Positions 45,836-49,610 of a stretch of DNA of 64,000 nucleotides are shown here, piece by piece. The position numbers were made by a program, and so were the translations under genes. Position 1 is the stretch's first letter; each line of letters starts with the position of its first letter. The DNA is taken from NCBI RefSeq assembly GCF_001536065.1, contig NZ_CZVW01000009.1:1-64000 (forward strand), read 5' to 3'. Below the pieces are notes generated by a model. It did no database searches. It was not told the origin of the DNA and saw only the letters and a list, made by a program, of their open reading frames with translations. Source of the stretch: Candidatus Chryseopegocella kryptomonas. GTDB taxonomy: Bacteria > Bacteroidota > Ignavibacteria > Kryptoniales > Kryptoniaceae.

Positions 45836-46597
45836 ATGCAGAAAAAAATTTTCTTTGTTCTTTTCCTGATCACTTTACAAAGCCTTTGTATAGCTCAAAG
45901 TTCAGCGGGTGCGGGTGCAAATTTCCAGCAAAGATTTATAGTTGATATGCCAACCGCTGGAATTTTAAAATCAAACAGCGTTGCTCTTGACGCTGATTTC
46001 TTCTCCGACGGCGGTCTTATGTTGCGCCTCACAGCTTCAGCATTTAACAGATTAAATTTCGGAATCTCATACGGCGGAAGCAAAATCATAGGCAACGGAA
46101 GTGTAAACTGGTTTAAACTCCCCGGTGTAAACTTAAAAATTAGAATAATTGACGAAGCTCTTAATTTCCCAGCAATCGCAATTGGATTTGATTCACAAGG
46201 AAGAGAAAATTACATTGACAACTTGAAAAGATACGAATTCAAATCACCCGGATTTTTCGCCGTCGCAAGCAAGTCATTTAAATTTCTTGGATATTCTTCA
46301 ATTCACGGTGGGATAAATTATAGCTTGGAAAAAGACGACGGAGACAAATCATTGAACTATTACATCGGCTTTGATAAAACAGTCGGAAGCGATATAACAA
46401 TTGCGGTTGAATACAATTTCGCAAATAACGATAATTCCGCAAATGCACTTGGTAGCGGGAAAGGCTACCTTAACGCAGGAATTAGATGGTCATTAGGAAA
46501 TGGATTTACCCTTGAACTCAACTGGAAAGATATACTTATAAACAAAGAACCCGGAAATTCAAGAGTTGTAAAACTTGAATATATTCAATCTTTTTAA
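45836..46597 (+). CDS. Predicted outer-membrane beta-barrel protein (YjbH-like start), 253 aa
   Basis: The protein has a signal peptide (KKIFFVLFLITLQSLCIAQ), then DMPTAGILKSNSVALDADFFSDGGL, which resembles the TAGIL-type start of YjbH/PorP-like barrels. About twelve alternating strands follow (for example LNFGISYGGSKIIG, YYIGFDKTVGSDITIAVEYNF), ending in Phe. It is probably a small outer-membrane barrel; the function is unknown. A consensus-like promoter lies just upstream. Confidence 0.76.
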   Translation: MQKKIFFVLFLITLQSLCIAQSSAGAGANFQQRFIVDMPTAGILKSNSVALDADFFSDGGLMLRLTASAFNRLNFGISYGGSKIIGNGSVNWFKLPGVNLKIRIIDEALNFPAIAIGFDSQGRENYIDNLKRYEFKSPGFFAVASKSFKFLGYSSIHGGINYSLEKDDGDKSLNYYIGFDKTVGSDITIAVEYNFANNDNSANALGSGKGYLNAGIRWSLGNGFTLELNWKDILINKEPGNSRVVKLEYIQSF

Positions 46598-46678: not shown

Positions 46679-47656
46679 ATGAAAAAATTAATTTTGTCAG
46701 TTTTGATAAGTGCTTTATTCTGGGGTTGCTATACTCAAATTGGGACTTTGAAAGAAGACGAAGGTTATTCAGAATCCAAACCGAAAAAAGAATATCGCTA
46801 TTACTCCGAAAATTATGATTACAACTATGACACTTGGGTTTATCACAGATTTGTTTATCGTTATTATCTTCCCTACCCAAGATATTATCTCTTTTTCAGA
46901 TACTACACTCCGGGCTTTGCCGTTGGCTGGGGAGAATGGTGGTATTACGACCCATATTGGTTTGATTATTACTGGTGGGATTGGGATTGGTACTGGTGGA
47001 ACAGATATTACTGGTACTCATACTATTGGTATTTCCCGATGTGGTATTATTATCCGTGGTGGTACAGAAATCCGATCATCGTTATAATAAACAATCCGTA
47101 TTATTCGCCCGGTGACGGAAAAAATATAGTTTACAGACCGAGAAACTTTGGCTCAACTCGTGGTGGAATTTCAAGCACGAATGAAACTCCAAACATTGCG
47201 CAACCGCCATCAAGAACAACTCCAAAGGGAACATCCTCAGATGGTGCTTCTCAAAGTAGTGGTGGAAGTTTAAGAAAACCAGCTGGTTCGGGTAGAGAAT
47301 CACCTTCTATTGAAAGAGGAAAAGATGCAGAAAGACCAAGGGATACAGGTTCAACAAGGACACCATTAACGCCGAGAATCGTCCCAAGGTCGGGAGATGG
47401 AAATTCAAATTCACCGAGAGAAAATTCAACGCCTCCACAAAGAAGCTCTCCACCAAGAAGAAGCGGAACGCATAGAAATTCAATTGAAATTTACCGAGAT
47501 TACGAAACCGGCAGAAGCACATTGATTGAAATTCCACAGCACAATTTCCAAAGACCGAGCGTTATAAATCATTCACCACAAATTCAAATTAACAATTCAA
47601 ACAATTCAAATCAACCCGAACAACATAGAAGACAAATAGGAAATAGAAGAAAATGA
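46679..47656 (+). CDS. Lipoprotein with extreme Trp/Tyr-rich tract and Ser/Pro/Arg-rich tail, 325 aa
   Basis: I recognise no family. The signal ends at a lipobox-like FWGC (Cys17), followed by a short charged linker. Residues 38-131 are extraordinary: 53 of 94 are Trp, Tyr or Phe, with runs such as YYWWDWDWYWWNRYYWY. From about residue 150 the chain is low-complexity (Ser, Thr, Pro, Arg, Gly), probably disordered, and it ends in RRQIGNRRK. The start has the strongest ribosome-binding site that I noticed in the window (AGGAGGTG, six bases before ATG), which implies high expression. It overlaps the next gene by four bases; that gene encodes a smaller protein of the same layout. A structural, adhesive or electron-conducting surface role is conceivable but unproven. 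Confidence 0.82.
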   Translation: MKKLILSVLISALFWGCYTQIGTLKEDEGYSESKPKKEYRYYSENYDYNYDTWVYHRFVYRYYLPYPRYYLFFRYYTPGFAVGWGEWWYYDPYWFDYYWWDWDWYWWNRYYWYSYYWYFPMWYYYPWWYRNPIIVIINNPYYSPGDGKNIVYRPRNFGSTRGGISSTNETPNIAQPPSRTTPKGTSSDGASQSSGGSLRKPAGSGRESPSIERGKDAERPRDTGSTRTPLTPRIVPRSGDGNSNSPRENSTPPQRSSPPRRSGTHRNSIEIYRDYETGRSTLIEIPQHNFQRPSVINHSPQIQINNSNNSNQPEQHRRQIGNRRK

Positions 47657-48210
47657 AGAAAGCAATTTTTTTAACTTTGATTTTTTTCGCTGGTTGTTAT
47701 ACTATCATCAAGCACCCTGAAATAAGTTATACTGGTTCATCTGGTGAAACTTACACATCTTATGTCAATTACCGAAGCAATTGTGCAAGTTGTCATTCTC
47801 TTTCTGAGCTTGCTTATTATTATGAATTTATTCCAGCGCACACTTCATCGCCGTGGGTTTATTACAACACACCGTGGTGGTTTTGGTGGATAAACAATCC
47901 ACCCGATACATCTCGGGGGCAAGGTTCAACGCCTATTGCAACGCCAGAGCGAACAAGAGATTTCGGCTCGCATCGTTCAACAGGGAATGAATCGTTTTCA
48001 CCTCCACCACCGACCCGAACCCCTCCAAAATCAGGAGCAGATACAACTCCATCATCAACTTCTTCAATTGGGAAAAGTGATACAACAAAGTCAAATGATG
48101 GGAGAAATACCCCATCGGTTCGCTCTTCAAACGAAGGTTCAAGAGAGCAATCCAGAGAATCAAACACAACAGAAGAAGCAAAAAGAAAAATCGGTTCAAG
48201 GAGAAAATGA
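47653..48210 (+). CDS. Small lipoprotein with CxxCH motif, aromatic patch and disordered tail, 185 aa
   Basis: The layout copies the upstream protein: a signal with FFAGC (Cys15) followed by the same Tyr-Thr, an aromatic patch (SPWVYYNTPWWFWWIN, about residues 65-81), a long Ser/Thr/Pro/Arg-rich region and the end KRKIGSRRK. In addition it has CASCH at residues 44-48, the c-type haem attachment motif. There is no Met after the start codon, so an axial Met ligand is impossible; His21, His63 or a later His could serve. It could be a minimal monohaem cytochrome c, or the cysteines could bind a metal. The gene overlaps both neighbours by four bases. Confidence 0.8.
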   Translation: MKKAIFLTLIFFAGCYTIIKHPEISYTGSSGETYTSYVNYRSNCASCHSLSELAYYYEFIPAHTSSPWVYYNTPWWFWWINNPPDTSRGQGSTPIATPERTRDFGSHRSTGNESFSPPPPTRTPPKSGADTTPSSTSSIGKSDTTKSNDGRNTPSVRSSNEGSREQSRESNTTEEAKRKIGSRRK

Positions 48211-49610
48211 AGAAGTTAACACTCATAATTTTAACTCTTGCCTTGAATTTTTCATTCGCACAATTTCCAGATGACGCTTTAAGATATTCAAATATAAATT
48301 TTGGAGTTGGTGCAAGAGCCATCGGACTTGGATTTACTTACATCGGTGTCTCGGATGATTATTCAGCCATCTTTTGGAATCCCGCTGGACTTGCACAGGT
48401 GAAAAGATTTGAATTCGCAGGTGGATTAAATTATCTTGCATTGACGAATTCAACAAGGGTATGGGGATATTCAAACTCTTTTGAAAATACAGCAACAAAT
48501 TTAAATTCAATCGCTCTTGTTCTTCCAATCCCGACAATTCGCGGTAGTTTGGTATTCGCTGGTGGTTATACGAGAATTTCAGATTTTACAGGGACACTTT
48601 CAATTTCACTTTTTAACACGCAAAATTCAATTGTCCCATCACTTTACGACCCAAATCCAGATTACGACCTTGCTTGGAAACTTGGACTTGAAGATTCAAC
48701 AGGAGCAACACAAATTTTGAACAATGTTTCTCAAAAAATAACACTTTACGAGAGTGGTGGACTTAACAATTGGTTTATCTCTGGAGCAATTGATATAGCG
48801 GAAAATTTATCCGTCGGAGCAACAATTTCAATCGTGTCGGGAAGTTACAAATACGACAGGCAATTCATTGAAAGCGACACAAGAAATTATTACACAAATT
48901 ATCCGTGGGATTTTAAAGAGTTAACAGTTTCGGACATAATTGATGCAACCATAAGCGGTTTTTCCGCAAATGCAGGATTAATGTATAGAAGCAACATTTT
49001 CAGAATTGGACTTATGACGAGATTGCCAGCATCTATCAGCGTCAAAGAAAATTATACAAGAAGTGGAGAAAGCTCATTTGACAATGGAGATAAATTTTCT
49101 GATTCATACTCTGGAACTTCAAGATATGGTGTTTTATCACCATTTTATTTCGGCGCTGGAGCTTCGTTTAACATAAAAGATATTGTTTTAATTGCAGGAG
49201 ATATGGTTTATGTTGATTGGAGACAGATGGAGTTTAAAAATAATCCGGACCTCGTCCAACTTAACAGAGATATAAAGCAGATATTCACCGAAACAGTAAA
49301 TTTAAGCGCTGGTGTTGAGGTGACACTTCCATTTTTACAGCAAATCAAAGTAAGAACAGGATATTCTTACAGACCATCTCCATACGCAGAGGACAAAGGA
49401 ATTTCAAGCAGAGCAACAAAATTATTAACTTTTGGTTTCACCGTTCTTTTACAAAAGACACTTCTCATTGATTTCGCATACATAAATGGAAAATGGAACA
49501 CAATTCACACGCAATACAGCTACATACATAACAACAATTTTTATGCATTAATCACAGACGAAGAAAACACAATACGAAACTTTGTTCTGACACTGCGATA
49601 TAGATTTTAA
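48207..49610 (+). CDS. OmpP1/FadL/PorV-like outer-membrane protein, 467 aa
   Basis: After a signal peptide (KKLTLIILTLALNFSFAQ) the protein has the family N-terminus INFGVGARAIGLGFTYIG, then YSAIFWNPAGLAQV. About 14 beta strands follow, with FYFGAGASFNIKDIVL and VKVRTGYSYRPSPYAEDKG-like segments near the end, and a C-terminal Phe. Homologues are either FadL-type transporters for hydrophobic compounds or PorV-type T9SS shuttles. Its four-base overlap with the CxxCH lipoprotein gene ties it to that pair, so it may be their outer-membrane partner. Confidence 0.86.
   Translation: MKKLTLIILTLALNFSFAQFPDDALRYSNINFGVGARAIGLGFTYIGVSDDYSAIFWNPAGLAQVKRFEFAGGLNYLALTNSTRVWGYSNSFENTATNLNSIALVLPIPTIRGSLVFAGGYTRISDFTGTLSISLFNTQNSIVPSLYDPNPDYDLAWKLGLEDSTGATQILNNVSQKITLYESGGLNNWFISGAIDIAENLSVGATISIVSGSYKYDRQFIESDTRNYYTNYPWDFKELTVSDIIDATISGFSANAGLMYRSNIFRIGLMTRLPASISVKENYTRSGESSFDNGDKFSDSYSGTSRYGVLSPFYFGAGASFNIKDIVLIAGDMVYVDWRQMEFKNNPDLVQLNRDIKQIFTETVNLSAGVEVTLPFLQQIKVRTGYSYRPSPYAEDKGISSRATKLLTFGFTVLLQKTLLIDFAYINGKWNTIHTQYSYIHNNNFYALITDEENTIRNFVLTLRYRF

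Follow-up and report, generated by a model that had tools for sequence, protein, structure and literature searches.

The window, as we call the whole 64 kb stretch of DNA that was analysed, contains a gene for an aromatic-rich lipoprotein (hereafter ARO), which lies among genes for other predicted envelope proteins. The features discussed below are:

45836–46597, plus strand: small predicted outer-membrane protein (253 aa), with a weak, below-cut-off YjbH-like match
46679–47656, plus strand: ARO (325 aa), with a signal peptide, Cys17-Tyr-Thr-Gln, an aromatic tract and a tail
46790–47071, plus strand: aromatic tract of ARO, residues 38–131 (53/94 aromatic; pN/pS 0.165 within the genus)
47653–48210, plus strand: second, smaller GCYT lipoprotein of 185 aa; contains NCASCH (CxxCH), the invariant PWW and the R-x-R-[ND]-F-G-S-x-R motif also seen in ARO
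48207–49610, plus strand: outer-membrane barrel of the FadL/BamG superfamily (467 aa), above the Toluene_X cut-off and in conserved adjacency

The ARO frame begins with an ATG, runs for 325 residues with zero internal stops, and is preceded by the Shine-Dalgarno sequence AGGAGGTG, a strong ribosome-binding site positioned a few bases 5' of the start codon. Its most striking element is the tract at residues 38–131, which is made up of 31 Tyr, 16 Trp and 6 Phe among other residues; this reproduces exactly the count of 53 aromatics in 94 positions given in an earlier note on this DNA. The runner-up stretch of the same length among the other open reading frames of the window holds 27 aromatics, and with a background of 12–14% aromatic residues the binomial probability of the ARO tract is 1e-21 or less. 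Since the tyrosines of ARO are specified by a mixture of codons (23 TAT and 15 TAC), the tract is not an artefact of a DNA repeat. Further along the protein, residues 153–161 spell the motif RPRNFGSTR, and the tail that follows (residues 154–325) is rich in Ser, Arg and Pro, as had been claimed, with a net charge of +13 and the C-terminus RRQIGNRRK.

ARO belongs to a widespread family without a name, and is not the oddity of one genome. Orthologues are present in all seven genomes of the genus (about 60–67% identity), a profile search found the protein in 150 of the 245 class genomes, and homologues also occur in further classes of the phylum, the closer carriers being Candidatus Kryptonia, Kryptonium and Thermokryptus MAGs and the more distant ones Ignavibacteria and Balneolales MAGs. 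Searches of Pfam, NCBIfam, PHROGs and PDB sequences with ARO or its profile returned zero matches, in agreement with the earlier note, which knew of no named family; the literature on tyrosine-rich or aromatic-rich lipoproteins yielded, besides Wzc capsule kinases, the BAM paper discussed below as the sole relevant match. The tract is kept in 70/70 aligned homologues, with 28–53 aromatics per 94 residues (mean 40; the protein of the window is the maximum), and 11 more distant homologues carry 29–42 each. Homologues lacking the tract, which the note had named as evidence against its view, were thus found in neither set. The C-terminal part is basic in 70/70, with a mean charge of +13.5 across the final 120 residues.

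Compared within the genus, the tract and the downstream barrel change at the same slow rate, the tract under purifying selection, and the tail is relaxed: pN/pS is 0.165 for the tract, 0.163 for the barrel and 0.55 for the tail, values that are rough because synonymous sites are near saturation. Most aromatic positions of the tract are identical or still aromatic in the other members of the genus. Of the 70 homologues, 53 contain an aromatic-Asp-Pro-aromatic motif, compared with 7 of 70 once the sequences are shuffled. The periodic Trp/Tyr spacing that the note had named as a sign of a functional structure is absent from the homologues analysed, and structure prediction did not recover a fold for residues 38–131 (AlphaFold2 of ARO with 70 homologues; mean pLDDT 49, and below 50 over most of the tract). 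A segment that is conserved with no detectable fold of its own suggests, from sequence and model together, that it acts by binding a partner, and we therefore regard the tract as probably a disordered, conserved binding surface.

ARO carries the signal peptide and lipobox cysteine of a bacterial lipoprotein and is predicted to sit in the outer membrane. Cys17 is invariant in 70/70 aligned homologues, most of which have a canonical LxGC-type lipobox, while that of the window protein, FWG-C, is less canonical; the lipid anchor is assigned on this cysteine, and the view of ARO as a real lipoprotein gene is supported. In Bacteroidota, export to the cell surface is signalled by acidic residues close after the cysteine, at positions that are critical (PMC5080379, PMC12578637). 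Two acidic residues within the first six after the cysteine were found in 0/70 homologues, whose acidic cluster typically begins at +7 to +10. With this canonical signal missing, surface display of ARO appears doubtful and the protein may instead face the periplasm.

The strongest clue to the function of ARO, overlooked by the earlier note, is the BamG-like barrel next door. Across the class, the gene order is small outer-membrane protein, ARO, sometimes the small lipoprotein, and the FadL/BamG-type barrel; the protein at 45836–46597 is the upstream neighbour of the cassette in most of these loci and is very strongly conserved. In the window, the ARO stop overlaps the start of the small lipoprotein in an ATGA, as does the stop of the small lipoprotein with the start of the barrel, and these junctions suggest that the three genes form a translationally coupled unit. 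Among the 245 genomes of the class, 146 contain both ARO and the barrel, 4 only ARO, 22 only the barrel and 73 neither (Fisher p = 4e-37 for co-occurrence, a statistic that ignores phylogeny). The two genes adjoin in the same order in 128 of the 134 genomes in which both positions were listed, and the six non-adjacent cases are mostly short contigs or contig ends. Moreover, in 11/11 genomes that were opened because they scored as barrel-only or weak, an aromatic lipoprotein sits beside the barrel, in some cases starting with CxST in place of CYT. Fourteen loci selected solely by the barrel, the majority from genomes missed by the first ARO profile, also carry ARO; in one of these loci the gene looks broken, and another locus has a run of N in it. 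Outside the class, the barrel adjoins ARO in 18/18 loci picked by ARO. The pairing of the two genes is near-obligate.

The barrel belongs to the FadL superfamily. It scores 48.7 bits against Pfam Toluene_X (PF03349), whose gathering score is 29.7, and its family profile matches in the PDB, in this order, BtBamG of B. thetaiotaomicron (2e-9), PgBamG, FadL (3DWO) and PorV. BamG itself can be ruled out: the barrel reaches 65.8 bits against the BamG equivalog with its cut-off of 250, and a different gene elsewhere in the genome (G000:C19) scores 270 bits and is the true bamG. The likeness to PorV and PorQ, the FadL-type proteins of the type IX secretion system (T9SS), is weak and far below the model cut-offs (46.7 versus 90 bits for PorV_fam, 41 versus 325 for PorQ). 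A T9SS-specific part is not supported by distribution either, as sprA is present in 236 of the 245 class genomes with or without the ARO/barrel pair; since 73 genomes have neither gene and nearly all genomes keep sprA, the pair cannot count as a universal component of assembly. Another neighbourhood of barrel and lipoprotein was observed separately (G000:C10, L190:2931-5591), where a third gene for a FadL-type barrel has a GDSL-lipase-like lipoprotein gene after it.

The closest described parallel to this arrangement is BamG–BamH, in which, in this class, a lipoprotein gene lies directly upstream of the gene for a FadL-superfamily barrel (PMC12611786, PMC12578637). A lipoprotein gene also lies immediately before the true bamG; in one relative it encodes a weak BamH match together with DUF4270, and in this genus a protein with a DNRLRE/CBM96-like domain (L189, G000:C19:8300-15500); the latter may be the local BamH. 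The window locus therefore repeats the lipoprotein-then-barrel layout, and we read ARO and its barrel as a second "lipoprotein + BamG-type barrel" cassette beside the true bamG pair. The solved structure nearest to the window barrel is that of BamG. ARO, however, differs from BamH in being aromatic and disordered and in lacking the acidic export signal, and NCBIfam gave no BamH match for ARO or for eight distant homologues at E<=1. A flexible, Tyr-rich segment near a BamG-type barrel has a precedent in extracellular loop 3 of Bacteroidota BamA, 38 residues with 13 Tyr, which lies in the dome (PMC12578637). That loop is part of BamA, whereas ARO is a lipoprotein in its own right, with 53 aromatics among 94 residues. 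The BamAs of the genus and order that were examined do not show such a loop, their barrels containing no more than 5 Tyr in any 40 residues, so that the parallel is suggestive only.

The sequence comparisons establish the ARO family, the conservation of its tract, the gene pairing and the kinship of the barrel with BamG. Judging by the gene pairing, ARO is probably a partner of the adjoining FadL/BamG-type barrel, with the proviso that adjacency of genes does not prove binding of their products. Our preferred, though tentative, proposal goes further and casts ARO as a dedicated outer-membrane lipoprotein partner of the barrel, the tract of which would bind outer-membrane proteins during assembly. 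In the published complexes, BamH wraps its lipidated tail on BamG (PMC12611786), and by analogy the lipid-proximal segment of ARO (CYTQ...) probably docks on its barrel. The tract, disordered alone and constrained like the barrel, would probably provide a sticky binding surface, the likeliest clients of which are extended strands or loops of outer-membrane proteins under assembly. In its fullest form, the proposal describes an accessory assembly cassette of the Bacteroidota outer membrane: a BamG paralogue would have as its lipoprotein a disordered aromatic brush that holds client outer-membrane proteins; we consider this version improbable as it stands. If true, ARO would perform in trans a task that the Tyr-rich loop of BamA may have in Bacteroides. 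The outer membrane of Bacteroidota is built by the BAM machine, whose BamG–BamH half was first described in 2025. A second cassette with the same gene layout, present class-wide and carrying an extremely aromatic lipoprotein that is disordered yet strongly conserved, offers a concrete, deletable pair for probing BamG-type barrels and Tyr-rich segments, and a large nameless protein family gains a genomic context.

FadL relatives also move hydrophobic molecules, and the client may accordingly be a small molecule. In the main competing explanation, to which we assign an appreciable minority chance, the barrel is a FadL-type hydrophobic transporter to which ARO hands over captured substrate. The Toluene_X score and the presence of 3DWO among the PDB matches of the profile fit this idea, and hydrophobic ligands would suit an aromatic-rich surface; BamG structures, however, match the profile better than FadL does, and the cassette lacks conserved catabolic genes in the class loci compared. 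A structural or adhesive role, in which the tract would sit at the membrane interface or be cross-linked through dityrosine and the cationic tail would tie the outer membrane to peptidoglycan or LPS, seems unlikely to us. The lipid anchor, the disorder of the tract alone and the basic tail of all 70 homologues agree with it, as does the missing export signal, which is consistent with a periplasmic face, but it does not account for why the gene is so strictly paired with a single clade of barrels, and the conserved cassette contains no cross-linking enzyme.

The small lipoprotein at 47653–48210 raises the question of haem. It combines a CxxCH with a genome that encodes a haem-attachment system, as expected of a c-type cytochrome, and because these CcmC/CcmF-like cytochrome c maturation genes exist, a covalently bound haem c is plausible from sequence. 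The CcmC-like match at G000:C2:96882-97388 contains an in-frame TAA that is absent in the listed genus mates, indicating either a sequencing error or a broken gene. A His-Pro lies upstream of the motif in 13 of 14 CxxCH versions and in 1 of 8 CxxCH-less homologues, a difference that possibly reflects one evolutionary event; the CxxCH-less proteins, which come from other families, retain the invariant PWW and the R-motifs. Among cytochrome c families, PF13442 matched only at E=0.22, below the cut-off, the alignment-based search with the small lipoprotein gave nothing significant, and its AlphaFold2 model has a low pLDDT (52.6). An extracellular or periplasmic electron path formed by the stacked aromatics of ARO, as suggested earlier, and the neighbouring CxxCH protein would draw on this His-Pro association and on the maturation genes, yet most ARO loci have no CxxCH protein or other redox gene in the cassette, one group keeps the small lipoprotein without CxxCH, and no multihaem cytochrome is found in the cassette. 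We consider such a path very improbable, and its distribution rules it out as the core role of the cassette. That the tract is low-complexity sequence with no selected function, in keeping with its lack of predicted fold and periodicity, has a practically negligible chance given its pN/pS of 0.165 and its retention in homologues across classes.

The two lipoproteins of the window resemble each other in their GCYT start, an R-x-R-[ND]-x-x-x-x-R motif and a basic C-terminus. The exact form of the R-motif varies jointly in the small lipoprotein and ARO of one genome, a covariation that is due in part to shared lineage. A third, tiny GCYT lipoprotein was observed in the same cassette at another locus (L057:3558-3866, minus strand); this Pro-rich protein of 103 aa shares an IRNEGEGR motif and an RRRR end.
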